64,000 nt of DNA, from the NCBI GenBank assembly GCA_028288165.1, contig JAQBOG010000017.1:124001-188000 (forward strand), written 5' to 3'. Position numbers and translations under genes: made by a program. Source of the stretch: Sphingobacteriales bacterium (GTDB lineage Bacteria; Bacteroidota; Bacteroidia; Sphingobacteriales; Sphingobacteriaceae). This document shows, in pieces, positions 3,002 to 41,520 of this stretch. Each line of letters starts with the position of its first letter. Position 1 is the stretch's first letter. The notes beneath the pieces are model-generated. The model saw only the letters and a list, made by a program, of their open reading frames with translations. It was not told the DNA's origin and made no database searches.

Positions 3002-3312
3002 TGATAGCTATCAGGTATTAGCAATCAGCAATCAGCCTATAGCTATCAGCCAGTGAAAAGTTCACAATAAGATTAGCTGATAGAATTATTGAAAAGATGC
3101 TCAAGGCTGAAAGCAATCAGCAATCAGCAATCAGCTTTGAGCTATCAGCCAGTGAAAAGTTCACAATAAGATTAGCTGATTGAATTATTGAAAAGATGCT
3201 ATAGGCTGATAGCTGACTGCTGACAGCTCAAAGCTCAAAAACAAACATGCTATAGGCTGATAGCTGACAGCTGATTGCTCAAAACTCAAAGCTCAAAGCT
3301 GATTGCTCAAAA
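3002..3312. repeat. AGCTATCAGC word array before permease 1
   Basis: The stretch is built from recurring words. The left part reads in the CAGC sense (GCAATCAGC, AGCTATCAGCC). The right part reads as the reverse complement (GGCTGATAGCTGAC, GCTGACAGCT), so the two halves can pair. Within it a block containing CAGTGAAAAGTTCACAATAA occurs twice, 99 bases apart (3051 and 3150). The array stops just before the ATG at 3322. Confidence 0.85.
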
Positions 3313-3321
3313 CTTAACAAA

Positions 3322-5715
3322 ATGTTTAAGAACTACCTCAAAATCGCCCTCAGAAACTTGTTTAAATACAAGCTGACCTCCTTTATAAACCTATTTGGTT
3401 TAACCATCGGATTAACCTGCTGTTTGGCAATCATCGCTTATACTTTAAACGAGATGAGCTATGATACATACCATAAAAAGGCCGATCGTATTTATCGTGT
3501 GGCTACAGATTGGAAATGGGCAGGCGGAAGCTTAAATATGGCAAACACTTCTGGTCCCGTTGCACCTTTGCTAAAACAAAACTTTCCAGAAGTAGAAAAA
3601 ACAGTTCGTTTCTATACAGAAGGAACTGAATTTGTAAAATCTGGACAAAATTCGATAGAGATTTCACCAATATTCACGGAAAATAGTTTCTTTGAAATTT
3701 TTGATCATCAATTTATTTATGGTAATCCGAAAACCGCTTTAAATGAACCAAACTCCATGATTCTTACCGAAAGCGCTGCAAAAATGATCTTTGGAAGTGT
3801 TGCCAAAGCTTATGGAAAAACGTTGGAATATATCAATCGGCCAACCCAAAAAGTAACGGGGATTATTAAAGATGTTCCGGCTAACTCTCATTTTACTTTC
3901 AACGCAGTAGGTGTATTAGATGCAAACTCTGAAAGCGTCAAAAACATACAGGAAATCAATCTGTACACCTATGTACTTTTAAAACAAGGTGCTAAAATAA
4001 CAGGCTTTGAAAAGAAAATTCAAAAGCTAATGGGCAAACAGCTAAACGATTTTCAATCTAAATACAATTATGTTTTACAGCCTTTAACTTCTATTTATTT
4101 AACATCTCATTTACAAGGTGAAATTGGTGCTAATGGTAATATTCAATACTTGTATATTTTTGGTGTGATTGGAGGGGTTATCTTACTGTTGGCCTGCATA
4201 AATTACATTAATTTAGCAACTGCACAGTCAACCCGCCGGGCGAAAGAAGTTGGAGTTCGGAAGGTAATGGGGTCGGACAGAAAGCAAATCGTTGCTCAGT
4301 TCTTTACCGAATCTCTCCTGTTAATAGTCGTTTCTTCTGTTCTAAGCGTTTTGCTTCTTCAAGCTCTTTCTCCGTTACTTAGTCAGATAGGAGGTAAACC
4401 AATTATCCTATGGTCTGCTGGTTGGCTGTCTGTTTTGATGCTGGTATTTGGATTAGCACTTACAGTAAGTATCATAAGTGGCCTTTATCCGGCTATTTTT
4501 CTTTCAAAATTTGCCCCTGCTACTGTTTTAAAAGGAGTATTTAATGGTAATCCTTCTCATTCATATCTCAGGAAATCATTGGTCGTAATTCAGTTCACCA
4601 TTTCTATTGCGCTGATAGTATTTACATTTATTAGTTGGCAACAATTAAGTTTTGTGATGAATAAAGACTTGGGTTTCAATAATAATCAAGTTGTAGGATT
4701 GCGGATTCCAAGCTATGAATTACGAACCAAAAATCTTTCTGCATTGAAACACAAGCTAAGTACTTATTCAGGTATTGTTGGAACTACTGCTACCACCAAT
4801 CAAGTAGGTAGGGATGGGGCAATTCCAACAAGCGGTTTCTTCTTCGAAAATAACAGTGAGAAACCATCTTACACAAACATGTCTCAAAAAATTGGCATTG
4901 ATGAGGCGTATTTTAAGCTGATGGAAATCAAACTCAAAGAAGGACGAAACTTCTCCGCTAGCTTTCCTTCAGATTCTTCACGAAGCTTAATTGTGAACGA
5001 AACATTGGTTGCAAAGCAGGGCTGGAAGAACCCAATAGGAAAGCGGATTTGGTATTTTGTTGATGACAATGGCAATACGCAGGAAGCGAAGATAATTGGA
5101 GTTGTGAAAGATTTTCATGTAACATCACTACATCAAACCATAGAACCCTTAGTATTCTTTATGGCTCCACCGATGGAGTCAGATAATTTATATATCAAAA
5201 TAAAGCCCGAAAAGACAAAGGAAAGCCTTGCTTTTATTCAAAAAACATATCGGGAATTTGATAATTATAACCCGTTTGAAACTTATTTTTTGGATCAGAA
5301 TTTTGCCAATCAATATCAAGACGATAACCAAAAACGAAATCTATTTATGTTGTTTGCTTCTTTAGCAATCATAATTGCTTGTCTGGGTTTGTTTGGTTTA
5401 GCTGCATTCACTATAGAACAACGCACCAAAGAAATTGGTATCCGTAAAGTTCTTGGAGCTTCGATGGAAAACATATTATTAATGGTTACCAAAGACTTTG
5501 TATGGCTCGTAATAATAGCCTTTGTAATCGCTTCGCCCATTGCACTATGGGGAATTAATAAATGGTTGCAAGATTTTGCTTATAAAGTAGATATTCATTG
5601 GTGGACATTTGCCATAGCCGGACTGCTAGCTGTTATAATTGCTTTAGCAACAGTAAGTTTCCAAGCATTGAAAGTTGCACTAGCAAACCCAGTTAAAAGT
5701 TTAAGAACTGAATAG
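3322..5715 (+). CDS. FtsX/MacB-like ABC transporter permease, paralog 1
   Basis: A 797-residue inner-membrane permease of the large Bacteroidota MacB/FtsX type. A TM helix near residues 20-42 is followed by a periplasmic MacB_PCD domain (about 45-240). The first FtsX domain follows with three helices (about 280-410) and the conserved cytoplasmic motif RRAKEVGVRKVMG. A second periplasmic domain comes next, and a last FtsX domain with the motif RTKEIGIRKVLGAS near residue 710. Such proteins work with a separate MacB/LolD-type ATPase to move lipoproteins or peptides or to sense antimicrobial peptides. No ATPase of that type is nearby. Two paralogs follow in the same direction. The first 20 residues are nearly shared among the three, which points to tandem duplication. 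Confidence 0.92.
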   Translation: MFKNYLKIALRNLFKYKLTSFINLFGLTIGLTCCLAIIAYTLNEMSYDTYHKKADRIYRVATDWKWAGGSLNMANTSGPVAPLLKQNFPEVEKTVRFYTEGTEFVKSGQNSIEISPIFTENSFFEIFDHQFIYGNPKTALNEPNSMILTESAAKMIFGSVAKAYGKTLEYINRPTQKVTGIIKDVPANSHFTFNAVGVLDANSESVKNIQEINLYTYVLLKQGAKITGFEKKIQKLMGKQLNDFQSKYNYVLQPLTSIYLTSHLQGEIGANGNIQYLYIFGVIGGVILLLACINYINLATAQSTRRAKEVGVRKVMGSDRKQIVAQFFTESLLLIVVSSVLSVLLLQALSPLLSQIGGKPIILWSAGWLSVLMLVFGLALTVSIISGLYPAIFLSKFAPATVLKGVFNGNPSHSYLRKSLVVIQFTISIALIVFTFISWQQLSFVMNKDLGFNNNQVVGLRIPSYELRTKNLSALKHKLSTYSGIVGTTATTNQVGRDGAIPTSGFFFENNSEKPSYTNMSQKIGIDEAYFKLMEIKLKEGRNFSASFPSDSSRSLIVNETLVAKQGWKNPIGKRIWYFVDDNGNTQEAKIIGVVKDFHVTSLHQTIEPLVFFMAPPMESDNLYIKIKPEKTKESLAFIQKTYREFDNYNPFETYFLDQNFANQYQDDNQKRNLFMLFASLAIIIACLGLFGLAAFTIEQRTKEIGIRKVLGASMENILLMVTKDFVWLVIIAFVIASPIALWGINKWLQDFAYKVDIHWWTFAIAGLLAVIIALATVSFQALKVALANPVKSLRTE

Positions 5716-5718
5716 TAA

Positions 5719-6009
5719 TGAGCTATCAGCAGTCAGCTATCAGCCCTTTTATACGTTAAAGGAAAGGGAGCTGTCAGCTATCAGCCTTTTACAGTTCAAA
5801 AGAAAGGGATTTTTGTTCGGAAATAGAGTCTAAGTTGACAGCTTAAAATTCAAAATAATAAATATGCTATAGGCTCATTGCTGACTGCTGATAGCTGACA
5901 GCTCAAAGCTCAAAATAATAAACACGCTATAGGCTCATTGCTCACTACAGATAGCTAAAAGCTAAAAACTTGCTAGAAAACTGATACCTCACAGCTGATA
6001 CCTGATACC
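5719..6009. repeat. AGCTATCAGC word array between permeases 1 and 2
   Basis: It begins four bases after the stop of permease 1 with AGCTATCAGCAGTCAGC (5721-5737) and ends just before the next ATG. The exact reverse complement GCTGACTGCTGATAGCT is at 5880-5896. A unit of about 62 bases containing GCTATAGGCTCATTGCT is repeated in tandem (about 5865-5955). Confidence 0.85.
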
Positions 6010-6016
6010 TAAAAAA

Positions 6017-8407
6017 ATGCTTACTAACTACCTCAAAATCGCTTGGAGAAGTTTGTTTAAAAACAAGCTTTTCTCTTTCATTAACATATTTGGACTGGCT
6101 TTAAGCTTGTCGATTTGTATGATGGTGATGGTAAGAATTAAAAACGAATTTAGCTATGATCGCTTTCATCCTTATCCAGAGCGTACCTATCGGATTATTT
6201 CGGAAATCAGCAATAAAAGAGGCGATCATTGGAAGCTGGCCAGCACTCCCTTGCCTTTAGAACAAAAAATAGTATCAAGTAGTGATGCGATTGAAAGTAC
6301 CGTACAGATTTATCCGGCCATTAATCAAAAGGCAGCAACCGAGGGCAAAGAATTATCCATTCGTGGAGCATTTACAGAATCCTCTTTCTTTAAAGTTTTT
6401 GGTTTTACACTAAAGCAGGGCGATGAAAATACCGCATTAAATGAGCCGAACAGCATTATTCTAAGTAAAACTGCTGCTGAGAATTTTTATGGAAGGAAAA
6501 GTGCTATCGGGCAAATTTTAAATCTGGAAACTTTAGGAAGCTATCAGGTTACCGGCGTATTGAATGAAATACCCGGCATATCACATCTTGATTTTGATGT
6601 TTACATAGCTTCTTCCGCAATTCCACAATTAGAAAAGCTGCACAAATTGCCGCAATTCTTAAATAATTGGGATTCCTTTGAAAAGGGATATACCTATGTG
6701 TTGCTTCAAGAAAATGCATCGCCGGAAACGGTAACCAAAAGCTTAAAAAGGATATCAGCAGAAATCAACAAGCTATCAAAAGATGGGCAGTTTAATTTTG
6801 TAACAGAACCTTTAAGTGCTATAACTCCAGGCAGTAGTGATGTTTACAATGGAATAGGTGGCGGTACCAGTTGGATGAAAGTTTATATTGAGTCTGGAGT
6901 AGCATTGATTTTACTTCTGGCCGCTTGTTTCAATTATGTAAACCTGACCATCGCAAGGGCACTTACCCGGGCAAAGGAAGTGGGCATCCGTAAAGTTAAT
7001 GGTGCTTCCAGGTACCAGATATTTGCTCAATATATCATCGAATCGGTATTAATTGCCTTCTTTTCCTTAGGTGTAGCATTAATTATTTTGTCTTTTGTGC
7101 TCAGATATAAACCTTTTAATGATGGTTATGAAATGATTCCGAATGTCCAGTTAGACTATTCGATCTTGATTATTTTTGTATCATTTACTGTTATTATCGG
7201 TATGCTTGCTGGTTCATTTCCTGCGTGGATCTTGTCGGCTTTTAAACCAGTGCGAGTTTTAAAAAATATCTCTACCGAAAAGTTGTTTGGTAATATTTCG
7301 CTGCAGCGGATATTAATTGTATTTCAATTTTCACTTTCACTGGTAATCATTATTTTCCTTTCCGCCTTTTATCGCCAGTTCAGTTATTTGGGCAAAGCCG
7401 ATTATGGATTTAGAAAGAATAATTTGATCACCATCCCGTTGAACGGAAATAAACCTGAAATATTAATAAATGCCCTCGCTGGTGTTACCGGAGTGGGAAA
7501 AATTGCTGCTATTTCTGATAATTTCGGTTCCAGACAAACCGGCGACATCACGGCCTTGTATAATAAGGAGAAAAATCTGCGTATCAATTTGGCGTATTAT
7601 TTTGCTGATCAGAATATAGTTCCGGTGATGGATTTGAAGATTAAAGCTGGCGAAAACCTACCAATAACCGATGATCAGAATAAAGGAAAGTATTTACTGG
7701 TGAATGAAAAGGCCGTATTAGCAATGGGATACAAAATGAATGAAGCAATTGGTAAAATGGTTTGGTTAAATGATACAGCACAGGCAACTATTACGGGGGT
7801 TGTTCAAGATTTTTACTACCGTAACCCGGGTATCAACCCTCAGCCAATGGCACTGATTAACAATGCTACAGACGTTAAATATTTAACAATAACCGTTTCA
7901 ACTTCCGATAGAGAAAGGTTCGTTTCTGTTTTGAAATCGGTATGGCAGCACGTAACCCGACAAGAAAACTTCGTTTATAATTGGTTTGATGAATATTTAG
8001 AAGAATCAAGTGACCAAACAGCTACTATTTCTTTATTGGGATATTTAGCTTTTATGGCGGTGTCCATTGCTTCTTTAGGCTTATTCGGGTTAGTGATTTA
8101 TACAATCGAAACCAGGCGAAAGGAAATTAGCGTACGGAAAGTGATCGGTGCAAGTGTGAACCAACTAATGGCCCATCTGTCCAAAAACTTTGTAAAGCTG
8201 CTTTTAATTTCAGGGGCCATAGCAATGCCCTTAGGCTACATTCTAAGCCGAATCTTTCTTCAAAATTTCCCATCAAGAATAAACTTCGGAGTTGAAAGTG
8301 TGTTAGTTTGCTTTATGCTTTTATTAGTAATAGGCTTATTTACCATCCTAAGTCAAACCTTTAAAGCAGCAAGGGAAAACCCGGTAAAAAACTTAAGAAA
8401 TGAGTGA
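6017..8407 (+). CDS. FtsX/MacB-like ABC transporter permease, paralog 2
   Basis: A 796-residue permease with the same plan as its neighbours: an N-terminal TM helix, a MacB_PCD periplasmic domain, three helices after the motif RAKEVGIRKVNGAS, a second periplasmic domain, and a C-terminal FtsX domain with RRKEISVRKVIGAS. It is diverged from paralog 1 over most of its length although the start (MLTNYLKIAWRSLFKNK) is very similar. It needs a partner ATPase that is not encoded here. The 301-base spacer in front is almost wholly word array, so co-transcription with paralog 1 is possible but not shown. Confidence 0.92.
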   Translation: MLTNYLKIAWRSLFKNKLFSFINIFGLALSLSICMMVMVRIKNEFSYDRFHPYPERTYRIISEISNKRGDHWKLASTPLPLEQKIVSSSDAIESTVQIYPAINQKAATEGKELSIRGAFTESSFFKVFGFTLKQGDENTALNEPNSIILSKTAAENFYGRKSAIGQILNLETLGSYQVTGVLNEIPGISHLDFDVYIASSAIPQLEKLHKLPQFLNNWDSFEKGYTYVLLQENASPETVTKSLKRISAEINKLSKDGQFNFVTEPLSAITPGSSDVYNGIGGGTSWMKVYIESGVALILLLAACFNYVNLTIARALTRAKEVGIRKVNGASRYQIFAQYIIESVLIAFFSLGVALIILSFVLRYKPFNDGYEMIPNVQLDYSILIIFVSFTVIIGMLAGSFPAWILSAFKPVRVLKNISTEKLFGNISLQRILIVFQFSLSLVIIIFLSAFYRQFSYLGKADYGFRKNNLITIPLNGNKPEILINALAGVTGVGKIAAISDNFGSRQTGDITALYNKEKNLRINLAYYFADQNIVPVMDLKIKAGENLPITDDQNKGKYLLVNEKAVLAMGYKMNEAIGKMVWLNDTAQATITGVVQDFYYRNPGINPQPMALINNATDVKYLTITVSTSDRERFVSVLKSVWQHVTRQENFVYNWFDEYLEESSDQTATISLLGYLAFMAVSIASLGLFGLVIYTIETRRKEISVRKVIGASVNQLMAHLSKNFVKLLLISGAIAMPLGYILSRIFLQNFPSRINFGVESVLVCFMLLLVIGLFTILSQTFKAARENPVKNLRNE

Positions 8408-8408
8408 A

Positions 8409-8598
8409 GGAGCTGTCAGCGATGAGCCGTCAGCTATCAGCACTTGGCGAGTGTAATAACTGAAGTGAAAACAAAATATAGATATGCTATCAGCTAATAT
8501 TGATACAAAATAATTAACTCGCTATAAGCTGATAGCTCAAAGCTGACTGCTGACAGCTAAAAAAGCTCATTGCTGACTGCTGATAGCTAAAAGCTAAA
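8409..8598. repeat. AGCTATCAGC word array between permeases 2 and 3
   Basis: It starts directly after the stop of permease 2 with CAGC-sense words (AGCTGTCAGC, AGCTATCAGC). It ends with GCTG-sense words, including the exact 17-mer GCTGACTGCTGATAGCT at 8572-8588 and a one-mismatch copy at 8542, up to a few bases before the next ATG. Confidence 0.85.
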
Positions 8599-8603
8599 AA
8601 AAC

Positions 8604-10976
8604 ATGCTCAAAAATTACTTTAAATCTGCTTGGCGAAGTATTCTTAAGAACAAAGGAACTGCTTTTATAAACATCACTGGTTTATCGGTGGGATTAACTG
8701 CTGCGGTTTTAATATTGTTGTGGGTGCAAAATGAAATGAATTTTGATAAAGATCATCCCGAATCGGGAAACATTTACAGACTGACAACCAGTATTCCGTC
8801 AAATAACTGGATGTGGGAAACTACGCCTTTGCTTTTAGCTGATGCTGCGAAAAAAGCTATTCCAGAGATCGCTTCAGCATCCCGATTATACGCAGATAAC
8901 TCGCCTGTTTTCAATGTAAACGGGGAACTTATTTATGAGAAAAAGACGGCCTATGTTGATGACGATTGGTTCCAGATATTTCACTATGATTTTGTGGAAG
9001 GCAATGTTCAGTCATTTGCTCAAAATCATAACGGGATTATATTAACCCAGTTTGCTGCAGAAAAATATTTTGGGAAACAACCGGCGATCGGCAAAACCAT
9101 TCGAATTGACAGTGCCAATTTTCAAGTAAGAGCAGTCGTGAAAAATGCATTATCAAACTCTAGTTTTCAATATGATGCTTACCTACCTTTAGCCGCTTTA
9201 TTAACCGATAAACAAAGACGAGAAAATGATGAGGATTGGGGAAATTTCAATTACCTCACATTCATAAAGCTGAAACAGGGTTCAAATACTACTCTTACAG
9301 AAAGGAAACTAACACATGTATTGCCCGATAATGCAAAGGAAGAAACTAAAATCACGCTTCTTCCCTTAAATAAATTGCATTTCGAGGGCGGCTCCGAGTT
9401 TTCTGCTTTTGCCCATGGTAATCAAAATACGGTGTATATATTTTCTGCGCTTGCTTTTTTGCTGTTATTGGTAGCCTGCATCAATTACGTAAATCTTACA
9501 ACGGCAAAAGCCAGTCTGCGGGCCAAAGAAGTAAGCGTCCGGAAGATGATTGGTGCTAAACGAATCCATTTATTTTGCCAGTTCATTGCGGAAGCCGTAC
9601 TTATTAGCGCAATATCGATGGCCACCACCTTGATTCTTGTTCAAGTATGTTTACCCTACTTCAACGTAATTACCGGTAAAAATTTTGAGTTTACTCTCAC
9701 CTCATTAAATATGTGGTTTGTGATTGGGGGTACTTTGCTTACCGCTTTCTTATTAAACAGCATTTATCCAGCTTTAGTTTTATCATCATTTAAACCACTG
9801 AGTGTGTTTCGTGGCTTTATGATATTAAAATTAAAAGACACCTATTTTCGCAAAGGGTTGGTAATACTTCAGTTTACTATTTCGGTGATATTAATTTCAA
9901 GTACCATTGTCATTTACAGGCAAATGAATTTTATCCAACAAACTAATCCGGGTTATAATCGTTCACAAGTGCTTTTGTTTTCGCTGCCTCAAAATATCAG
10001 TGCTGATAAAAAGAGCTCGATTATTCAAAATATGAAGCAAAATCTGCAATACCAAAGCAGTATAGAAAGTATGACAGTCGCGAACCAATCTATTGTGAAT
10101 ATTGGTAGTTTATCTACAGGCAGTGCAGATTGGATTGGTCGTGATACCACCTTTAATCCAAAAATAGCTCAACTATCTGCAGATGCAGATTTTCAAAAAA
10201 CAATGCAATTAAAAATGCGAGAAGGCAGATGGTTTCAGCAAGGAAATGAAGCTGATAAAAACAATGTGATCCTAAATGAAACGGCCGTAAGCCAACTTAA
10301 TATTCCCAAGCCAATTATAGGGCAGCGGTTTACTTTTAAGGGGAGAACCGGACAAATAGTTGGGGTGGTAAAAGATTTCAATTTCAAAAGTTTGCATTCT
10401 AAAACCAGTTCACTAATTGCTTTTAATGATCCAACGTGGTTTAATTATTTTATGGTTCGTATTGCGCCCGGAAATATGGATAAATCTATTTCAGTTCTAA
10501 AAGATGCCTGGAAAGAACTGTTACCCAATAATCCATTGGAATACAAATTTTTGGATGATAGCTTTAATGAAAATTATAGAGAAGATCAACGTGCATCCTT
10601 CTTGATCTTGGTATTTGCGATCATTGCGATCCTAATTTCATCACTTGGTTTATTTGGTTTATCAGCCTTTACCGCAGAACAACGCAAAAAGGAAATTGGT
10701 ATTCGGAAAGTATTAGGCGCAACTGTTGCGAACATTACCGGCTTGCTATCAAAAGATTTCGTCAAACTAGTAGGTATTTCAATTATAATAGCCACGCCAC
10801 TAGCTTTTTGGGCCATGAATAAATGGATCCAAAATTTCGCCTATCGAATTGAAATAGTCTGGTGGATGTTCGCTGCCGCGGGATTGCTTGCCTTACTTAT
10901 TGCTTTGCTAACTACTAGTTTTCAGGCGGTTAAAGCAGCTTTGTCTAATCCGGTTAAAAGTTTAAGGACGGAGTAG
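8604..10976 (+). CDS. FtsX/MacB-like ABC transporter permease, paralog 3
   Basis: A 790-residue member of the same tandem family. It has an N-terminal TM helix (about 20-42), a MacB_PCD domain, a first FtsX domain with RAKEVSVRKMIGAK, and a second with RKKEIGIRKVLGATV near residue 700. The C-terminus ends ALSNPVKSLRTE, almost identical to the end of paralog 1 (ALANPVKSLRTE), while paralog 2 ends NPVKNLRNE. Paralogs 1 and 3 are therefore probably closer to each other at the C-terminus. The likely role is an ABC permease for export or peptide sensing; the substrate is unknown. Confidence 0.92.
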   Translation: MLKNYFKSAWRSILKNKGTAFINITGLSVGLTAAVLILLWVQNEMNFDKDHPESGNIYRLTTSIPSNNWMWETTPLLLADAAKKAIPEIASASRLYADNSPVFNVNGELIYEKKTAYVDDDWFQIFHYDFVEGNVQSFAQNHNGIILTQFAAEKYFGKQPAIGKTIRIDSANFQVRAVVKNALSNSSFQYDAYLPLAALLTDKQRRENDEDWGNFNYLTFIKLKQGSNTTLTERKLTHVLPDNAKEETKITLLPLNKLHFEGGSEFSAFAHGNQNTVYIFSALAFLLLLVACINYVNLTTAKASLRAKEVSVRKMIGAKRIHLFCQFIAEAVLISAISMATTLILVQVCLPYFNVITGKNFEFTLTSLNMWFVIGGTLLTAFLLNSIYPALVLSSFKPLSVFRGFMILKLKDTYFRKGLVILQFTISVILISSTIVIYRQMNFIQQTNPGYNRSQVLLFSLPQNISADKKSSIIQNMKQNLQYQSSIESMTVANQSIVNIGSLSTGSADWIGRDTTFNPKIAQLSADADFQKTMQLKMREGRWFQQGNEADKNNVILNETAVSQLNIPKPIIGQRFTFKGRTGQIVGVVKDFNFKSLHSKTSSLIAFNDPTWFNYFMVRIAPGNMDKSISVLKDAWKELLPNNPLEYKFLDDSFNENYREDQRASFLILVFAIIAILISSLGLFGLSAFTAEQRKKEIGIRKVLGATVANITGLLSKDFVKLVGISIIIATPLAFWAMNKWIQNFAYRIEIVWWMFAAAGLLALLIALLTTSFQAVKAALSNPVKSLRTE

Positions 10977-10984
10977 GCATCGGG

Positions 10985-11030
10985 TTTTGAGTTGTAAGTT
11001 TATGGGTGGTAAGTTGTAGGTGTCGATGCC
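10985..11030 (+). repeat. Low-complexity GTAAGTT-type words
   Basis: Recurring near-words such as GAGTTGTAAGTT and GGTAAGTTGTAGG occur just after the stop of permease 3. A second set of similar words (TAAAGTATAAAGTC) is at 13190-13266. No coding potential is seen. Confidence 0.45.
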
Positions 11031-11062
11031 TAAATAGCGTTGACTGTTTTGTAGGTCCATTG

Positions 11063-11190
11063 AGCATGCTAGAGCGTTAGGGGTTGTTCCAAAGGAATCC
11101 CTTTGGGACAGTGAAAATCCTTTTTTGTTGTTTTGACCTGGTGGAGGAAACAAAAGATTGTAGCGTAAACCCGCCCTGAACGCCCAAATT
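11063..11190 (-). repeat. Dispersed structured repeat, copy 2 (reverse)
   Basis: Read on the minus strand it runs from TTTGGGCGTTCAGGGCGGG to CTCTAGCATGCTC. It has a longer middle than copy 1, with an extra hairpin GGTTGTTCCAAAGGAATCCC in place of the short loop. It sits in the 348-base spacer between permease 3 and the ABC exporter. Confidence 0.8.
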
Positions 11191-11311
11191 GTTCTTATTA
11201 AATGATGTTTGGTATCTCTTCTGTAAACATAAATGGTTTCACAGATTCAATTCATTAATCATCATTAAGTAACTATTCGCCTCGGTTTAACATTCCTACC
11301 ACCTCAAACCT

Positions 11312-11319
11312 TATTTTTG
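11312..11319 (+). promoter_or_regulatory. Candidate -7 element TATTTTTG of the ABC exporter
   Basis: It matches the Bacteroidota -7 consensus TAnnTTTG. It ends five bases before the ATG at 11325, so a transcript starting at the usual distance would be leaderless or nearly so. The -33 element is not clear (GTTTAA near 11285). Confidence 0.45.
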
Positions 11320-11324
11320 CTATT

Positions 11325-13178: not shown

Positions 13179-13189
13179 GTTGGTTTTGA

Positions 13190-13317
13190 GTATCAAATCG
13201 TAAGTGTTAAGTAGTAAGTCGTTAGTATAAAGTATAAAGTCCTTATTATAAAATGTTAAGTATCAAGGTGGACCTGCAAACCTCAAAGCTGACTGCTGAT
13301 AGCTGACTCTTCAAAGC
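13190..13317 (+). repeat. Word repeats in the spacer after the ABC exporter
   Basis: Positions 13190-13266 hold AAGT-type words (AGTATAAAGTATAAAGTC). Positions 13276-13317 hold the GCTG-sense words with an exact GCTGACTGCTGATAGCT at 13288-13304. The remaining spacer to 13654 is AT-rich and shows no gene. Confidence 0.7.
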
Positions 13318-14177: not shown

Positions 14178-14220
14178 TGATAGCTCAAAGCTGACTGCTG
14201 ATAGCTAACAGCTCACAGCT
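14178..14220 (-). repeat. AGCTATCAGC word array after DUF4202 gene
   Basis: On the minus strand it starts four bases after the stop of the DUF4202 gene and reads in the CAGC sense, the same order as seen after the permease stops. It contains the exact 17-mer (plus-strand 14190-14206). Confidence 0.8.
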
Positions 14221-14224
14221 AAAA

Positions 14225-14815
14225 TCAAACAGCCGCTGCCTTCCCAATCAGTTCCCCCACTTTATCTGACACCGGAATTTTAACAGCTGCATCAATGCCA
14301 TGTGGCGACATTTTTTTCAGTGTCTTCTGAATAATATCAATCACTTTATCATCTTCATGTTTTGCGGCAAATTCGTCCAGATAATACTGGATAAATACCA
14401 AGCAGATTACATCTTCTAACAGCTGAGTATCCGGGTTTTGATGGAGCTGTTTTTTTAAAAGAAGTGCTTTGACTTTCTCAATCGTATCGTCATCGTATTT
14501 GCATTCGCGAAGTATCTTTTCTGCCACAGCAGCATGATGAAGCTTTAACTGGCTTCTCCATTGTAAATAGCCTTTTCGATCCATTGGATATTCACTTCTG
14601 GCAATTTCCCATCTGCCAATATGCTGAGACCGGGCAGCAAGCTGTAAATAATCCGGAACATCAAAAGCAAAATCGTTAAGCTTTTCGGTCATCCTCAATG
14701 CATATAAAACTTCCTTCGGATAGGTATCACCTTCAAATATCTCTCTATTTGGATCGGCAGAATTATATAAATCGAAGGCGTCAAAAGCCTGTTGTAATTG
14801 CTCGTTCAGATTCAT
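14225..14815 (-). CDS. DUF4202 family protein
   Basis: A 196-residue soluble protein that matches the DUF4202 family over its whole length. It has the N-terminal FDLYNSADPN motif and a histidine/aspartate-rich helical core (LAARSQHIGRWEIAR, LKLHHAAVAEKILRE, LLEDVICLVFIQYYLDEF). The conserved His/Asp pairs suggest an HD-like metal-dependent hydrolase fold, but no activity is established to my knowledge. No operon partner is evident; the FKBP gene lies upstream with a terminator between. Confidence 0.8.
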   Translation of the reverse strand: MNLNEQLQQAFDAFDLYNSADPNREIFEGDTYPKEVLYALRMTEKLNDFAFDVPDYLQLAARSQHIGRWEIARSEYPMDRKGYLQWRSQLKLHHAAVAEKILRECKYDDDTIEKVKALLLKKQLHQNPDTQLLEDVICLVFIQYYLDEFAAKHEDDKVIDIIQKTLKKMSPHGIDAAVKIPVSDKVGELIGKAAAV

Positions 14816-31272: not shown

Positions 31273-31276
31273 TAAG

Positions 31277-31455: not shown

Positions 31456-31514
31456 GCAAAATGTAGCATCTTTTACTAAGCGCTTATAAATTAACTAAAT
31501 CAAGAAGATCGAAA
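31456..31514 (+). repeat. Probable right-end remnant of the dispersed repeat
   Basis: GCAAAATGTAGCAT followed by AACTAAATCAAGAAGATCGAA resembles the right end and tail of copy 5 (GCAAAACCTAGCAT ... AACTAGATCAAGAAGATTAA). The left part is not recognisable. The rest of the 31306-31910 spacer is AT-rich with no gene. Confidence 0.4.
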
Positions 31515-34340: not shown

Positions 34341-34417
34341 TAATTTAGATTTTGCTCTTGTTTGTGAATTATCAAGCGCATTTCAAGGTGTTTTGTTTTT
34401 ATGAATACTAAGAAGTA

Positions 34418-34449
34418 AAGGGATTTACAGTTCAAACTGTAAATCCCTT
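34418..34449. terminator. Long perfect hairpin, possible terminator of the receptor gene
   Basis: A perfect 14-base-pair inverted repeat AAGGGATTTACAGT/ACTGTAAATCCCTT surrounds a four-base loop, 78 bases after the receptor stop. It has no T-run, so it may be a 3' stability element or processed end. Confidence 0.55.
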
Positions 34450-34984
34450 ATCGTTAAATCTTATGACAGCTATTAAAGTAAACTTGCTTTCCTGTTAAAT
34501 TAAATAACACGTTTTAAACGCGATAATTATATCGTTGATAGCCAAAGGGTGATTACAAAATAACTTAATAATAAGCCTAATCTAAAGAAGGGGAGAGATT
34601 TGTAAACCCTTTGACTTGGTACATGAAGGCTTTCTCAAAAAACTCCAGCACAATTACCAGATCTTAAGCCTCTTCCCAAAATTGTGCGTCTATATTAAAA
34701 TGCGCCTATCGTCAAAACAAATCGCCGTTTTACCTGAACATCGAACCAGAGTCAGTAATCAAATCCCGATACCGACTATGGTTAAAATTTAATCTAAAAA
34801 GAATTAAACTTAGAGGAATTTTTGAATTAATACAATTCATAACCAAGCGATTCGGTGGTTAATTTATATATTCTTTGGCTAACCTTAATCTAATACGAGG
34901 TGATGGCAAAATTGAAGTTCTTAGTATTTTCTGTGGTGGTGAAGTAAAGGTTATGAAAAGATTCTGTTCTGCTGCTATCTTTTG

Positions 34985-35062
34985 GCAGTCCCGTGTTGCA
35001 CTCATACGCCACAGGCATTAGGCGCAGGGCCGGTAAACGTTTCACCCAGGTTTAGGGTGGAA
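34985..35062. other. GC-rich non-coding patch
   Basis: The segment around CACAGGCATTAGGCGCAGGG and TTCACCCAGGTTTAGGGTGG is clearly richer in G and C than its flanks, with small inverted parts. It could be another repeat family or a gene remnant. I saw no second copy in this window. Confidence 0.35.
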
Positions 35063-35214
35063 GGTTGGAATTTCTATGACATTTTTGTTTAAAAAAAATG
35101 CACAAATAACCTATTTTAGATATGTAATAAATAGGCAGCTAGCATTCAGATTTTTTCTTATCATTATAAAATTTTTCCCTTGAATCATTTCATTTTTGTA
35201 ACCTATATAATTTT

Positions 35215-35603
35215 ATGGAAGAAGAGCAACCAAGTTTAGTAGCCAGATTTCAATCAACTTTTATCGATATGTTGTTCATTATCGTTATCATGATGATCGC
35301 ATCGTACGTTTTAGACAGCTTTGCTAACGTGCCAGATTGGGTCAGAATTAGCCTCATGGTTGGTTTATTTATAGCGTATGAACCGTTATGTATGTATTTG
35401 GATGTACAATCGGTAATTACATTAAAAACATTCGGGTTAAAAACTATGCTGATACCAGTAGTCGGATAAATATTCTCCAAGCCATTATACGTTATCTGTT
35501 TAAAATACTTTTAGGATGGATCTCATTTCTAACCGTCCATTCCAATCCATCTAAAAGAGCTATTCACGACTTAATTTCAGGAAGTGTAATGGTTAAAATC
35601 TAG
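35215..35603 (+). pseudogene. RDD family membrane protein, broken by a frameshift
   Basis: Two frames together make one RDD protein of about 129 residues. The first (35215-) gives the N-terminus with two helices (ARFQSTFIDMLFIIVIMMIA; ISLMVGLFIAYEPLCMY). The second frame then gives GCTIGNYIKNIRVKN, QAIIRYLFKILLGWISFLT and KRAIHDLISGSVMVKI. The switch falls at 35395-35400 in TATTTGG. One more T (TATTTTGG) would restore MYFGCTIGNY, so a single-base deletion in a T-run is the simplest cause. Unrepaired, the first frame ends at 35469 after 84 residues. It may be a true pseudogene or a sequencing error. Confidence 0.8.
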
Positions 35604-35633
35604 TATCAACTGGAAAATTTATATAAACGAAAA

Positions 35634-35658
35634 AAGGCCCGAAACGTTTCGAAGCCTT
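35634..35658 (-). terminator. Terminator of the NTF2-like gene
   Basis: The stem AAGGC/GCCTT encloses a second stem CGAAA/TTTCG, and on the minus strand a run of T follows. It lies about 25 bases past the stop at 35684. Confidence 0.75.
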
Positions 35659-35683
35659 AGCAAGGTTAGCGTGTAATAAAGTC

Positions 35684-36112
35684 TTATTTCAAGTAACTGC
35701 TTGAAATGTTGGTGATCTTCCAGCCGGTTCCTGTTTTGTCTAAATTGATGTAGTTAATTTTTGTAAAACCTTCATACTTCATGATCACTTTTATGATCGC
35801 TTGTGATGAATTGATTTTCTCTACTTCATAATCTGTAGTGCAGTTTTGTACCACGTTTTCTGAATGCTTCAAATAATTTAATAAGTCAGTTTTAGAGTAG
35901 TTAACCACCTTGTCCGCTCTTATTACAGTGAATTTCATGGTTTCATCTAGTATATCACCTAAGCCTTCCATTTTGCCATTCGCTACAGCTTCCACATAAG
36001 TATTTAGGGTATTATCAATTTTTGATTTTTCATTTTTTACACCATCTGCTGCAAATGCGCTAACGGATAATATCATGAATAAAGAGGCTGTTAAAGTTTT
36101 TAAAGTTTTCAT
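35684..36112 (-). CDS. Secreted NTF2-like (lumazine-binding-like) protein
   Basis: A 142-residue protein from the ATG at 36112 (MKTLKTLTASLFMIL). An upstream in-frame ATG would add 30 residues in front of a good signal peptide and is less likely. The signal peptide spans about 1-21 (VSAFAA). The mature part has the NTF2-like pattern DNTLNTYVEAVANGKMEGL, MKFTVIRADKV and a final GTGWKITNISSSYLK, as in the putative lumazine-binding family. The function is unknown; such proteins bind small ligands in the periplasm. Confidence 0.75.
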   Translation of the reverse strand: MKTLKTLTASLFMILSVSAFAADGVKNEKSKIDNTLNTYVEAVANGKMEGLGDILDETMKFTVIRADKVVNYSKTDLLNYLKHSENVVQNCTTDYEVEKINSSQAIIKVIMKYEGFTKINYINLDKTGTGWKITNISSSYLK

Positions 36113-37525
36113 TGTGTGTGATTTTAGATTTTTCTTTTCTGTTTGTTGATTCAAATGTAGGTCGAGAACCAACGCTGGCAAATCACAATTAGGTAAGCGC
36201 ATTTAACTTTTCGGTGAACAGAAGTTTTATTTCGGTGAAAATGAGTAAGGGGAATTTTTACCGGAAGGGAATAGGGGATATAAAGAGATAAATCATAACG
36301 ATAGCTAAGAAGGAATTTGTCTCTTAATCTAGATGAGTGGCTGAAGAAACGGACTAGCCAAGCGGAAATATGGCGAATGATTTGGAAGCGTCCGAGATAT
36401 GCATTGAACGTTTGGAAAGAAGAGGTGAGTGCTGTGTGGAATAGTTGCAGCCAGGATTAAAAATTAATGCGAACAGGATATAGGAATGTTCCGCAGAAAG
36501 CCTACTATTTAGTCAGGACAATACTGCCCACATACTTGATTTGCAAACTGGCGGTTTAGCCAATCAGCTCCGAAAAACTGAACCTGATAAATCACTTTAC
36601 AAAGGTTGACAAAAGCAATTGATTTATCAATTAATCAAAACGTATTCGACTCCGAGTCGTTCAAAAACTGGATACTTTACCGGAAAGTTCAAGACAAGAA
36701 GTGCGACCTCAGATTCATGTAAGGTTTGAAAAAGATGAACACCTAAAATTCGGAAGTATCAAAGACGACTAGATGGTGCTCTTGATTTTACAGGAAGAGA
36801 AGAGCAATCTACCCTTGAAACTGATCTTCTTATTTGCAAATTAAGTAAGCCGTTTTTAGGTCTTTTTGAACTTTTGATCGGTTAATAAAATGCAGGTTCA
36901 GTAGCTAACTGGAGGGACTTTTGTTCATGCTAATTTGCTGTACGTCGCATTGGAAAGTCCGGGGGACATGGTTAAAAGAACCTGTCAAAATCAGTAATAC
37001 CTCCTAGTATTTAAGGCTGAAAAGTGCCCAATTTATCTTCGTTAAAAGTTAACCGATGCATTTCCTGAAAATCATTCGTTAAATAAGTACAAAATATTTA
37101 ATGTGAATTTATATTTTATATAAGTAATAATAAATATCTCATTTACATTATTTTATAAAACTGTATTACTTTAAGTAATGGTATGATTTTTGGGTATTTG
37201 CCCCTTCATTATTAAACGAAAGCCGATTTGGCGCTTTAGAATTTATGAAAACGAATTGTTTGTCATCCACTCAAATTGTGGGAGATAAAAGTATAGTTCT
37301 TTGAAATGAGCATTGCAAAGGAGATCATAAAAATGGCTCGGTTAGGACCCGATAAATATCAGTTTGATTTCACCCGAAAATTAAAAGATGTACTGTAAAT
37401 ATCTCCGCTAATACAGCCGATAAAGAAGACATATTTCTGAAAAAATCCCAGCTTGGCTAGGCCCCTTGTCGCCACAAGGGGAAATCTATCTCCGACTAGG
37501 AATACAAAAAGCAAGTACTTAATAA

Positions 37526-37585
37526 ATCGCCCAAATCCTGCTCATCCCCAAATCCAGTAAATCCTGATTTTGACTACAGTTATGC
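37526..37585 (+). repeat. AAATCC-type word repeats
   Basis: Near-words AAATCCTG, AAATCCAG and AAATCCTGATT follow each other with short gaps. The style is like the other low-complexity intergenic words in this window. Confidence 0.4.
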
Positions 37586-37785
37586 CATAATACTGATTTA
37601 ACAATATGGAGTGGAATTTTTTTAACGACTGGCAGGCATGAGACACCAAAAGATGTTTAAACTTTTGTGTAACATATCCGTAAATACTGTTGATCAGAAA
37701 TTGCTTTATGAAAAAATCACCACACGTTTATCGTAAACATGCAAATAACCTAGTTCGAATATGAAAATAGTTTAAAAATTGCTTC

Positions 37786-37880
37786 TGGGCGTTCGGGCGG
37801 GCTTTCCGTTACAATCTTTTTGCCCAAAGAAAGAGGGCAAAAAGGATTTTCACTCAATCCCTAACGCAAAACCTAGCATG
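37786..37880 (+). repeat. Dispersed structured repeat, copy 6
   Basis: It begins TGGGCGTTCGGGCGGGCTTT and ends with CCCTAACGCAAAACCTAGCA and TG. The central inverted repeat is CTTTTTGCCC/GGGCAAAAAG. This is the most complete and symmetrical copy. Confidence 0.85.
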
Positions 37881-38106
37881 CTTCCTAATCACATTTTTAT
37901 GTTTTCTGAATCTTAATGATACTTTGCATATCGAACTCAGATTAATAGGTTGTCTAATTTTCTGTCTGAGCGGTGTAAGCTTTTTGCTTTGTAAGCTACT
38001 TTTATAGCTCGTAATTTTCATAATGTGTTTTTAACAGCCCTCATAACAGCTAAAAGCGTATATTTGGGATATTTTGCTATTAATATTACCTATATTATAA
38101 TTTATA

Positions 38107-39573
38107 ATGACCGCTATTGCCGACAGCTTATTAGAAAAATACGAACTTGTTGTAGGTTTAGAAACACATGTGCAGTTATCTACCTTAAGTAAAATATTTT
38201 CAACAGATTCAGCTGGTTTTGGAGCTAATCCAAATGAGCATGTAAATCCGGTAACTGTTGGCCTGCCAGGAACTTTGCCAAAACTCAACGGAAAAGTTGT
38301 GGAATACGCCATTAAAATGGGGCTTGCTACCAATTGTAAAATAAATTTGGAGAATCATTTCGATCGTAAAAATTACTTTTACGCCGATTTGCCAAAGGGT
38401 TTTCAAACAACTCAAGATAGTAAACCTATTTGCATAGAAGGGTATCTTGACATAAAAACCAAAAGTGGCAAAGAGGCACATATCCGGATAAATAGGATTC
38501 ATATGGAAGATGATGCAGGAAAAAGCATGCATGACCAAGATCCTGTTGATTCGCTGATTGATTTAAATAGGGCAGGTGTTCCGTTAATTGAGATTGTATC
38601 AGAACCTGATATTCGTTCGGCCGAGGAAGCCGCTCTTTACTTAGGTGAAATCAGAAAACTAGTTAAGTATCTGGATATTTGTGATGGAAATATGGAGGAG
38701 GGAAGTATCCGCTGCGACGCAAATATTTCTGTACGTTTAAAAGGCAGTGAACAATACGGTAACCGTTGCGAAGTGAAAAACTTAAATTCGGTTCGTAACT
38801 TGCAAAGAGCCATTGAACATGAGTATATCAGGCAGGTTAAACTCATTGAAGACGGAATTTATATAGAGCAAAATACGTTAAACTTCGATGCCAACACCGG
38901 AATCACTTCTCTATTAAGAAGCAAAGAAACAGCAAACGATTACCGCTATTTCCCTGAACCCGACTTAACACCATTAGTACTATCTGAGCAGTATATTGAA
39001 GAGCTTTTATCGCAATTGCCAGAACTACCTGAAAAGAAGGTGAAAAGGTATGTTAATGACTTAAATTTATCAGAATACGATGCGTATGTGTTGACATCTG
39101 AAAAGGAATTAGCAGAGTATTTCGATGAGCTAACCAAAGTAACATCGAACTATAAGGCTGCTGCAAATTGGATGATGGGTACCGTGAAGTCTTATTTAAA
39201 TTCAAATAGTATCTCCATCACAGAATTTACCATTAAACCCAAGGTATTAGGGCAATTAATTGCCTTAATTGATAGTGGGAAAATTAATAACAGCGTTGCT
39301 TCTCAACAGGTTTTTCCTGCTTTGCTTGATAATCCCAATTCATCTGTTGAGAGTATAGCAAAACAACTTAATGTTTTGATCGACGAATGTGTTGATGGCT
39401 TGGATGACTTAATAACAGAAGTTTTGAATAAATATCCTGACAAAGTGAAAGAATACCACAATGGTAAAAAAGGTGTTGTTGGATTGTTTATGGGGGAGAT
39501 CATGAAGAAATCAAAAGGTAAAATCAATCCTCAGGACGCAAATAAATTAGTACTTCAAAAATTAGAAAAATAA
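38107..39573 (+). CDS. gatB: Aspartyl/glutamyl-tRNA amidotransferase subunit B
   Basis: A 488-residue GatB. It has the N-terminal YELVVGLETHVQLSTLSKIF, the metal and transamidation site motifs (RNEYFADLPKGFQ-like KNYFYADLPKGFQ; GVPLIEIVSEPD), the EVKNLNS motif and the C-terminal YqeY-like tail domain (about 340-488). With GatA and GatC it converts misacylated Glu-tRNA(Gln) or Asp-tRNA(Asn) to the amides. gatA and gatC are not in the window, which is usual in this phylum. A TATATTTG -7-like element is at 38059. The next gene starts one base after the stop. Confidence 0.96.
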   Translation: MTAIADSLLEKYELVVGLETHVQLSTLSKIFSTDSAGFGANPNEHVNPVTVGLPGTLPKLNGKVVEYAIKMGLATNCKINLENHFDRKNYFYADLPKGFQTTQDSKPICIEGYLDIKTKSGKEAHIRINRIHMEDDAGKSMHDQDPVDSLIDLNRAGVPLIEIVSEPDIRSAEEAALYLGEIRKLVKYLDICDGNMEEGSIRCDANISVRLKGSEQYGNRCEVKNLNSVRNLQRAIEHEYIRQVKLIEDGIYIEQNTLNFDANTGITSLLRSKETANDYRYFPEPDLTPLVLSEQYIEELLSQLPELPEKKVKRYVNDLNLSEYDAYVLTSEKELAEYFDELTKVTSNYKAAANWMMGTVKSYLNSNSISITEFTIKPKVLGQLIALIDSGKINNSVASQQVFPALLDNPNSSVESIAKQLNVLIDECVDGLDDLITEVLNKYPDKVKEYHNGKKGVVGLFMGEIMKKSKGKINPQDANKLVLQKLEK

Positions 39574-39574
39574 C

Positions 39575-40675
39575 GTGAGAAGAATAAATCTGTTGGCTAT
39601 AATTAGCATACTGTTAGCTTTTGCTTCCTGTAAAAAAAATGACGAATTCAGTATATCCGGAAAACTTTTAAATGCTGGTGATGTAAAAAAAGTATTGCTT
39701 TATCAAGGCGATTCACTTGTAGATTCATCTATGCTGAATACAGATAAAGAATTTAAATTTAGAAGGGTTTCTGTAGATCCTAATTTCTACAATATCTCTG
39801 TTGGTGATAAAAACTATCTGGTAGTTGCTCAAAATGGGGATGAATTAGATTTTACGGCTGATTTAAAAGATGCTAACAATAGCTATGAAATTGAAGGATC
39901 AAAGAATGCAGACAAAATAAAGGAGTTTAATGCGATTAATACTAAATACGGAAAGGTTTTTCAAGAAATTCAAGGTGAATTTAGCCGCGTAGTAGAAAAA
40001 AATCCTTCGTTGAAAGATTCCATTACTAGTGTTTTAATGCCACAATTTGAAAAGAATATGACTGAATATTCTGAAGAGGTTTTAAAGTTTGCTAACAACA
40101 ACAAAGATAATTTAGTCGGTTTTTATGCTATCGGAACCATTGATGCATCTACGTACGAACAAGAATTAATAAAATATTCAGACGATATTAGCTCTAAGTT
40201 TCCTAATAATAAGCCAGTTAAGGATTTCATTACCAAAATGGCCGAGATCAAAAAGGTATCGGTCGGCCAGTCTGCACCTTTGTTTGAATTACCTACTCCA
40301 GAAGGTAAAATAGTTAAGCTAAGTGATTTTAAAGGTAAATTCGTTTTGATAGATTTTTGGGCTTCTTGGTGCGGACCATGTAGACAAGAAAATCCAAATT
40401 TGGTAAAGGCATATAATGCGTTCAAAGACAAGGGTTTTACTGTCTTGGGAGTATCTTTAGATGATAGTAAAGCTGACTGGTTAACTGCCGTTAAAAACGA
40501 CAATTTAGCTTGGACGCACGTATCTGATCTCAAAAGATGGGATAGCAAAATTGCTGCATTATATAAAGTGGAAGGTATTCCAGCATCATTTATCTTAGAC
40601 CCGACAGGAAAGATCGTTGCAAAAAATTTAAGAGGAGAGAAGCTTGAAAATTTTTTGAAGACTAATTTGAAGTAA
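39575..40675 (+). CDS. TlpA-like thioredoxin lipoprotein with DUF4369 domain, GTG start
   Basis: A 366-residue lipoprotein: Cys in LLAFASCKKND, then a DUF4369 domain (about 25-125), a helical part (about 130-215) and a thioredoxin/TlpA domain (about 225-366). The redox motif is WASWCGPCRQE. The cis-proline region is GIPASFILDP. It reduces or shuffles disulfides at the outer face of a membrane. The start is GTG at 39575, one base after the gatB stop, so it is probably co-transcribed with gatB although the functions are unrelated. Confidence 0.9.
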   Translation: MRRINLLAIISILLAFASCKKNDEFSISGKLLNAGDVKKVLLYQGDSLVDSSMLNTDKEFKFRRVSVDPNFYNISVGDKNYLVVAQNGDELDFTADLKDANNSYEIEGSKNADKIKEFNAINTKYGKVFQEIQGEFSRVVEKNPSLKDSITSVLMPQFEKNMTEYSEEVLKFANNNKDNLVGFYAIGTIDASTYEQELIKYSDDISSKFPNNKPVKDFITKMAEIKKVSVGQSAPLFELPTPEGKIVKLSDFKGKFVLIDFWASWCGPCRQENPNLVKAYNAFKDKGFTVLGVSLDDSKADWLTAVKNDNLAWTHVSDLKRWDSKIAALYKVEGIPASFILDPTGKIVAKNLRGEKLENFLKTNLK

Positions 40676-40690
40676 ATAGATTGTTAACGC

Positions 40691-40728
40691 TTAACAACAC
40701 TTAACAATTACTTAATAAGCACTTAACA
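40691..40728 (+). promoter_or_regulatory. Helically phased TTAACA repeats, Pho-box-like
   Basis: TTAACA occurs at 40691, 40701 and 40723 and TTAATA at 40712, with spacings of 10, 11 and 11 bases; a half copy TTAACG is at 40684. Direct repeats with 11-base spacing are the usual site form for OmpR/PhoB-type regulators. It ends about 20 bases before a -7-like TAATTTAG (40749) and 48 bases before the response regulator ATG. Confidence 0.7.
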
Positions 40729-40775
40729 ATTTGATGGCTTAGACAGGGTAATTTAGCAACACACAAAATTGAATT

Positions 40776-41465
40776 ATGAGCACTGCTAAACATAAGATCC
40801 TGATCGTTGATGATGAACCAGATATTCTGGAACTAATCGAATACAATCTGAAAAAAGAAGGTTACCACGTGTTCACTGCAAGTAATGGCCAAGAAGCTGT
40901 TACGTCTGCTAAGAAAAACTTACCCGATTTAATCATCCTTGATATCATGATGCCTAAAATGGATGGTATTGAGGCTTGTCGTATTATGCGAACAATGCCC
41001 GAGTTTAAAAATACCTTCATGGTGTTTTTAACTGCCCGAAGTGAAGAATATTCTGAAATTGCCGGATTTAATGTGGGTGCCGATGATTATATCGCTAAAC
41101 CAATCAAACCAAGAGCTTTGGTGAGCCGTATCAACGCTATATTAAGGCGTAATGTACAATCAGAGGAAGTAATTGATAATAAGCTCGAAATTTCTGACCT
41201 AACCATTGACCGTGAAGCTTTCTTAGTATATCGTGATGGCGAACGAATTGTGTTAGCTAAAAAGGAGTTCGAACTTCTTTACTTATTAGCCTCAAAGCCT
41301 GGCAAGGTTTATACTCGTGATGTTATTCTTAGAAGTATCTGGGAAGATTCAGTAGTAGTAACCAACAGAACCATTGATGTTCATATTCGTAAAATTCGCG
41401 AAAAACTCGGCGAAACTTATATTTCAACAGTAAAAGGAGTAGGGTATAAGTTTGAAATTCATTAA
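40776..41465 (+). CDS. OmpR/PhoB-family response regulator
   Basis: A 229-residue two-component regulator. The receiver domain (about 5-120) has DDEPD, the phosphorylation Asp in LIILDIMMPKMDGIEA (about residue 54), the Thr in VFLTARSE and the Lys in IAKPIKP. The winged helix (about 135-229) has KKEFELLYLLASKPGKVYTR, TNRTIDVHIRKIREKLG and KGVGYKF. It resembles PhoB/PhoP-type regulators. No sensor kinase gene is adjacent in this window. The TTAACA repeats in front suggest that it controls its own promoter. Confidence 0.92.
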   Translation: MSTAKHKILIVDDEPDILELIEYNLKKEGYHVFTASNGQEAVTSAKKNLPDLIILDIMMPKMDGIEACRIMRTMPEFKNTFMVFLTARSEEYSEIAGFNVGADDYIAKPIKPRALVSRINAILRRNVQSEEVIDNKLEISDLTIDREAFLVYRDGERIVLAKKEFELLYLLASKPGKVYTRDVILRSIWEDSVVVTNRTIDVHIRKIREKLGETYISTVKGVGYKFEIH

Positions 41466-41491
41466 TCTAAACATTGCTCTTAACAGGAAAT

Positions 41492-41520
41492 AGAGCTGAT
41501 AGCTGACTGCTAATAGCTCA
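41492..41520 (+). repeat. Word array before the pseudouridine synthase gene
   Basis: GAGCTGATAGCTGACTGCTA and ATAGCTC: a one-mismatch copy of the 17-mer at 41502, in the GCTG sense. The array is itself an imperfect inverted repeat (GAGCT..TAGC / GCTA..AGCTC). Confidence 0.7.

Follow-up and report, generated by a model that had tools for sequence, protein, structure and literature searches.

Arrays of degenerate heptads lie between genes of a Sphingobacteriales bacterium and tend to face the nearest gene edge

REP, BIME and ERIC-type repeats are imperfect palindromes dispersed between genes and rare between divergent ones, and the STRR heptanucleotide repeats of Cyanobacteria are dispersed intergenic 7-bp units in near-perfect tandem copies. 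The subject of this report is a set of arrays of 7-bp repeats (heptads) found in a 64,000-nucleotide stretch, hereafter the window, from a Sphingobacteriales bacterium (GenBank assembly GCA_028288165.1, contig JAQBOG010000017.1, positions 124,001 to 188,000 of the forward strand), and recurring elsewhere in the same genome and in its relatives. Judging by its genes and promoter motif, the bacterium is probably a Bacteroidota of the Pedobacter kind. These arrays share with REP, BIME and ERIC-type repeats their dispersal and their scarcity between divergent genes, but the latter are not known to be built of heptads. With STRR they have in common that both are dispersed intergenic 7-bp repeats; the near-perfect copies of STRR set the two apart.

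The initial annotation of this DNA could name no known type for the feature. However, intergenic heptamer repeats are a kind already described (MacGregor 2015, PMC4679880). In that work, repeats of the heptamer TAACTGA were reported upstream of start codons in Beggiatoaceae and translational regulation was suggested; other repeats of the TAACTGA kind were listed in Cyanobacteria and in five Bacteroidetes, and some species mix TAACTGA with other heptamers. The sets of BOGUAY contain two to six TAACTGA copies and lie mostly at starts, 36 of them being split by one or two related 7-mers, and 132 of 170 point to a start without ribosome-binding site (Table 1 of PMC4679880). One set in Flexibacter, of seven units, is in reverse sense and directly follows a stop. 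Like these repeats, the present arrays are mostly intergenic tandem 7-bp units whose forward sense occurs just before starts, and TAACTGA is one base away from TAGCTGA, the register of the window repeats. Unlike the BOGUAY sets, as that account presents them, they are not copies of one heptamer with related heptamers as rare direct repeats: the units are degenerate around a skeleton and many heptads are mixed, abutment is commoner at stops than at starts, one junction may contain both senses, and a single polarity is common to different heptads.

Two further systems were compared. In cluster K mycobacteriophages, the SAS/ESAS elements are start-associated and their consensus varies between phages; about half of the sites carry a 17-bp imperfect inverted repeat, with a spacer mostly of 4-13 bp (PMC3203893). 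In contrast to the present arrays SAS and ESAS are tied to starts, and the passages devoted to them describe no 7-bp period. The parS site of plasmid pSM19035 consists, like our arrays, of contiguous 7-bp repeats, at least four of which are needed, but it is a plasmid centromere in which unit orientation is not fixed, several orientations being accepted (PMC9499535). Sites of the parS type are bound by a protein of the ParB/omega type close to a partition locus. Five 16-base strings of the repeat had no occurrence in open-access papers, and in the open-access literature we met no account of a word-independent polarity rule at both gene ends, nor of orthologous junctions holding heptads in different words. 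As far as this literature search goes, four traits are new: the degenerate skeleton, the commoner stop side, a polarity common to two different words, and an orthologous junction at which the word changes between species.

The arrays had been noticed through a 17-mer reported to recur between genes. The positions given for it were correct (exact at 5880, 8572, 13288 and 14190, with one mismatch at 3212, 8542 and 41502, exact complement at 5721), and the recurrence is real and far above chance. Neither of the two outcomes named beforehand as grounds for rejection, chance-level counts or a lack of strand bias, was observed when they were checked. Allowing up to three mismatches, the window contains 21 matches, against a mean of 0.15 and a maximum of 2 in shuffled sequence. 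The whole assembly (3.69 Mb, 68.6% complete) contains 35 sites with at most one mismatch, 20 forward and 15 reverse, against none for a reversed-pattern control; the contig that holds the window (C11), although it makes up 6% of the assembly, accounts for 21 of the 35. A looser pattern, three GCTNAHW heptads followed by GCT, gave 78 partly overlapping matches in the assembly and none for the control. The 17-mer is nevertheless not the repeat unit, being a slice of a degenerate period-7 array of skeleton GCT-N-A-N-N, in which GCT recurs every 7 bp exactly.

Arrays of at least three heptads were then scanned for, requiring GCT and allowing one non-A at position 5 per array. The window contains 18 of them (three being the opposite-strand shadow of another array), against a mean of 0.13 and a maximum of 1 in 30 Markov shuffles. 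A sample of 781 of the 3,693 kb of the assembly, made up of contigs C11 and C37 in full and of stretches picked for their 17-mer matches, yielded 71 arrays with 313 heptads; 52 arrays were on C11, and tri-nucleotide shuffles of C11 and C37 yielded 0 or 1. The variable positions are 4 (mainly G, C or A), 6 (T, C or A) and 7 (A or T), and many heptads are mixed, GCTGATA (59 of the 313), GCTGACT (34) and GCTCAAA (34) among them. The arrays have defined ends: of the 19 occurrences of GCTAAA(A/C), 17 close an array, and of the 11 occurrences of GCTATAN, 10 open one. A directional decay along the arrays was also looked for, and no clear direction appeared: the mean number of skeleton letters present, out of four and against a baseline of 1.00, was 1.46, 1.21, 1.18 and 1.11 beyond the 5' end and 1.27, 1.45, 0.98 and 0.72 beyond the 3' end.

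The period was recovered independently of any word. On C11, 22 of 124 junctions between genes reach 24 matches out of 35 when the sequence is compared with itself at a lag of 7, and none does so at lags 5, 6, 8, 9 or 10. In our own sample and 15 relatives (16 genomes, the stretches of the relatives having been selected in part because they contain heptads, permease genes or the rluA junction discussed below), 114 of 907 junctions pass 23/35 at lag 7, against 1, 1, 6 and 3 at lags 5, 6, 8 and 9. The enrichment was seen in 14 of the 16 genomes, with none in G015 and G016. Scanning the window in the same manner gave eight segments (587 bp) at lag 7, none at lags 5, 6 and 8, and one each at lags 9 and 10. 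A second heptad family, ACAACYY (GTTGT plus two purines on the other strand) and unrelated to the GCT skeleton, is present in the same genome.

Only 3 of the 71 arrays (2 of 66 with a stricter core) lie inside called open reading frames (ORFs), which cover 85% of the sample. These three, at least one of which is in a doubtful ORF, were excluded, leaving 68 junction arrays. In 51 of these it is the 3' end of the forward sense that lies nearer the gene, against 17 with the 5' end nearer. Of the arrays that come within 10 nt of a gene edge, 26 face it (16 stops and 10 starts, all distinct; P = 4e-7), and the single back-facing array adjoins the edge of a doubtful ORF. Where a junction contains both senses, the order is reverse complement (rc), then forward, in 10 of 10 cases.

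This arrangement is visible around three tandem plus-strand MacB_PCD/FtsX permease genes of the window (3322-10976, that is 3322-5715, 6017-8407 and 8604-10976). In the junction before the first gene, rc-sense arrays occupy the left side (3016-3050 and 3108-3149, minus strand, within 3001-3161) and forward arrays (3198-3239, 3249-3283 and 3291-3311, within 3192-3321) lead up to the start codon at 3322. Directly 3' of the stop at 5715 come rc-sense arrays (5717-5744 and 5765-5785, spanning 5717-5785), followed by forward arrays up to the start codon at 6017 (5866-5914 and 5926-5946, then mixed GCT and CCT heptads at 5973-6016, the whole spanning 5866-6016). The stop of the second permease, at 8407, is followed directly by an rc-sense array (8407-8441), and two forward arrays (8521-8562 and 8565-8599, spanning 8521-8599) end 4 nt 5' of the start codon at 8604. 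Further on, a forward array (14183-14224) touches and points at the stop of a minus-strand DUF4202 gene (14225-14815). The polarity that had been proposed at gene ends thus stands at 3322, 6017, 8604, 5715, 8407 and 14225. It does not extend to the short forward array at 13288-13308, which has no adjoining gene, position 13288 being 109 nt from the nearest stop. As for the copy at 41502, which had been placed straight before a start, the forward array that contains it (41495-41522) lies in the junction that separates the genes for a response regulator and for an rluA-type pseudouridine synthase, and ends 40 nt 5' of the GTG start at 41563, upstream of a conserved TAnnTTTG box.

With stricter cores, 47 arrays face a gene and 17 face away for GCT.A in our genome, against 37 and 9 for [CG]CT.A in four relatives. 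The ACAAC arrays of our genome have the same polarity (11 to 0), and a looser CAAC core gave 11 to 1 in our genome and 5 to 1 in the relatives. At distances of -8 to 30 nt, 31 of 36 [CG]CT.A rows at stops face the edge and 5 face away (some beside doubtful ORFs), 26 of 27 rows at starts face it and 1 faces away, and all seven ACAAC rows face it. Because rc arrays free of stops could be swallowed by the ORF caller when they precede a start, an artefact was considered; the two arrays found in ORFs are too few to produce the polarity. Genes therefore tend to be flanked by inward-pointing arrays, and this is so for more than one word. A polarity that follows gene direction is, where arms are paired, what any inverted repeat lying between tandem genes would show. 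What is informative is that single arms also face the nearest gene edge, whether stop or start, and that a second heptad family does likewise. With such a rule, the old question of why these repeats have seven bases and lie between genes becomes open to direct testing.

Heptads are present in 96 of 515 junctions that include a gene 3' end and in 14 of 164 divergent junctions (P = 0.002; P = 0.004 for our genome alone and 0.07 for the relatives alone). Taken with the period of 7, the near-confinement to junctions, the outward-facing order of the arms, their abutment to stops and starts and the sharing of words within genomes described below, this leads us to suggest, tentatively and with slightly less than even confidence, that the arrays belong to a non-coding intergenic repeat, dispersed and imperfectly palindromic, which undergoes turnover inside genomes and has at most a tuning effect on transcripts. 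Each element would consist of two outward-facing arms, each ending at a gene edge and each made of degenerate tandem heptads that share a skeleton while their other positions are free; an arm found alone would be half of an element or a remnant of one. The heptads may arise and turn over through duplication and copying inside each genome, in favour of which we count the local copies of about 50 bp seen by eye in the window, and may settle where a gene 3' end leaves a tolerant spacer. In transcripts the arms would form a long stem, interrupted by mismatches, either between adjacent cistrons or at a 3' end, and the stem would at most tune message stability or separate cistrons. When the 24 junctions of 60-500 bp were folded and compared with dinucleotide shuffles, the mean z was -5.3 for the six paired junctions and -1.4 for the 18 passing as single-sense, a group into which the C2 junction (z -7.6) fell although in fact it has both senses. 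A terminator scan, restricted to loops of 3-8 and leaving spaced arms to be judged by eye, found 20 terminator-like sites between 2500 and 14300, one of which (5786-5769, minus strand, antisense to the genes) is within a heptad array; on visual inspection, the forward arms finish with A-rich heptads or at a start codon, and not with the T run that follows the G+C-rich hairpin of an intrinsic terminator. As to the Y1 (RAYT) transposase, to which the short palindromes of REP/RAYT elements are linked, the assembly has five matches to Y1_Tnp, four of them over the cut-off and none on C11.

The ten starts within 10 nt of an array, together with the often A-rich last heptad, recall the proposal made for TAACTGA: the forward array would be a ribosome-facing leader with stops in all frames and an A-rich end by the start. 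Each GCTGA heptad contains TGA, so that a run closes all frames, and the BOGUAY sets pointing to starts without ribosome-binding site would fit the same scheme. We nevertheless judge such a translation element distinctly unlikely, since abutted stops (16) outnumber starts (10) and convergent junctions also contain heptads (20 of 113, in our genome and the relatives). The rluA junction is also at odds with it. The TAnnTTTG box, which we take to be the Bacteroidota promoter motif, is kept at this junction in 18 of 19 relatives (by eye) and the arrays lie upstream of it; if the box is a promoter, they would fall outside the rluA leader.

The same response regulator/rluA junction was followed across relatives. 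Heptads reach a threshold of 19/28 in our genome and in nine of the 19 relatives, the baseline among junctions of the relatives being 67 of 406 (P = 0.002); the other ten relatives are below threshold. The words, read by eye, differ: GCTGATA-like in our genome, CCTGATA and GCTGATA in G013, CCTAATA in G018, ACTTATT in G002, CTTTTAG in G009 and G016, and AAAGCT in G017. Over 114 loci, 47 of them from our own genome, pairs of loci share a word in 38% of cases within genomes and 22% between genomes, and all 300 label shuffles gave lower values (maximum 36%). The DUF4202 site had no DNA match in 19 relatives. Words shared within genomes, and heptads that recur at the rluA junction while their words differ, would also be expected if the arrays were multivalent sites at gene edges, read by a DNA- or RNA-binding factor co-evolving with its sites so that words differ by species. 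Positions 4, 6 and 7 that vary while the skeleton stays, neighbours that are unlike and the defined end heptads all agree with such a factor, and the pSM19035 partition system, which reads contiguous 7-bp repeats (PMC9499535), is a precedent. The constancy of GCT, however, is partly imposed by the scan. Moreover, two unrelated skeletons, GCTNAHW and ACAACYY, show the same polarity in one genome, which a single factor would not explain, and orientation is nearly fixed here whereas pSM19035, as described, accepts several. A reading factor is thus a possible but rather unlikely explanation.

The permease genes of the window are the last three of 14 tandem same-strand MacB_PCD/FtsX permease genes of about 800 residues, located at 66-135 kb of C11. 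Of the 18 permease junctions 15 carry arrays, compared with 10 of the remaining 106 junctions of C11 (Fisher P = 2.5e-10) and with 26 of 260 junctions on the other sampled contigs of this genome. Runs of such genes were also observed in the relatives G013 and G006. A promoter at the permease junctions was considered and rejected: TAnnTTTG is present in sense in 5 of 14, and sigma-70-like sites number 28 against a shuffle mean of 39.9.

An exact search for three GCTGAYW heptads followed by GCT returned at least 115 stretches from many phyla, some in long open frames, and 81 stretches in viral contigs (IMG/VR). In the fetched loci, which are partly related, neighbouring arrays of opposite sense are in the order rc, then forward, in 22 of 22 cases on genome contigs and in 59 of 65 on viral contigs (six being forward, then rc). 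Polarity outside the genus was scored on 31 loci hand-picked from the at least 115 stretches, and facing arrays outnumber those facing away by 17 to 6 in 16 cyanobacterial loci and by 12 to 3 in ten loci from Acidobacteria and the like. Viral contigs dense in GCTGANN include L258 (17 arrays in 9.2 kb), L223 (35 arrays in 14.4 kb), L197 and L248. By Pfam, L258 (capsid) and L248 (weak portal match) are phage-like, and L258 has less than 60% identity to any named phage matched.

Several results weigh against dispersed palindromic repeats with a general inward polarity. At the level of the stem, the two senses had been thought able to pair, and they do fold together at junctions having both, but the arms of one site are not specially complementary: same-site arms gave a mean of -49.7 kcal/mol and different-site arms -50.9 (10 sites, permutation P = 0.63). 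Among 41 tight rc-loop-forward pairs that come from viral contigs and other genomes, 80 of 294 comparisons of variable positions give a match (27%), against 32% in shuffled pairs, and covariation thus lends no support to the stem. A specific hairpin with co-evolving arms was rejected on these two results. It is the shared skeleton that accounts for the stem, and nothing here indicates selection for the stem itself. By the filter, 27 of 37 array-bearing junctions are single-sense, although at least two of the 27 do contain both senses, one on C2 and one at 71.3 kb of C11, the latter interrupted by a doubtful ORF. For other cores of our genome the polarity is not significant (CCT.A 3 to 2, GATAC 7 to 2, ACTT.A 4 to 3), and ACAAC arrays were not found in the sampled stretches of the relatives. 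Facing against away was 1 to 2 in the five other Bacteroidota loci and weakly split, 63 to 38 with one tie, in ten dense viral contigs, whose rows are not independent (L223 shares sequence with L258 and L197); viral stops were faced both ways (26 to 20) and only starts were clear (26 to 4). At the rluA junction, relative L277 passes at lag 8 too, and L271 and L273 have only short AAAGCT stretches below threshold. The permease link is uneven among the four relatives, arrays being present at 5 of 8 permease junctions in G013, 2 of 8 in G006, 5 of 8 in G018 and 0 of 5 in G003; two lean likewise and two do not, and only G018 is significant alone (P = 0.01).

Adjacent heptads, finally, are no more alike than in within-array shuffles (15 of 242 against 15.9); pairs at lag 2 show a weak excess of likeness (16 of 171, with 10.7 in shuffles; P = 0.03). 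The unlike neighbours bear equally on a neutral microsatellite, in which functionless products of 7-bp slippage would fill tolerant spacers. A period of exactly 7, the mostly intergenic location and the different words at an orthologous junction would agree with it. Simple slippage predicts alike neighbours, which were not seen at lag 1, and it was rejected as the whole story; outward polarity at both stops and starts and the fixed end heptads would also be left unexplained. We therefore regard a neutral microsatellite as improbable. A bolder view would be that gene edges, those of some phages included, are bracketed by inward-facing arrays for which each genome has a vocabulary of its own, laid down by a dedicated writer/reader process, templated or factor-guided. 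We hold this to be very unlikely; if true, unrelated loci would share words inside a genome and orthologous junctions would change words between species.

A few minor features of the window deserve mention. A second heptad type, AAGTNNT-like by eye and of period 7, follows the stop (13178) of an ABC transporter gene at 13193-13249, an interval delimited by the lag-7 scan and given no strand. After the stop of the third permease, a weaker GTTGT-type heptad stretch was noted by eye at 10977-11035, under the lag-7 threshold. The only Rfam matches above gathering score in the window were two Flavo-1 RNAs (RF01705), at 2689-2764 and 37791-37872, both on the minus strand and outside the arrays. Direct copies of about 50 bp were seen by eye within the arrays at 3192-3283 and 5855-5946, and some of these copies carry an ATG resembling the start region of a permease gene.

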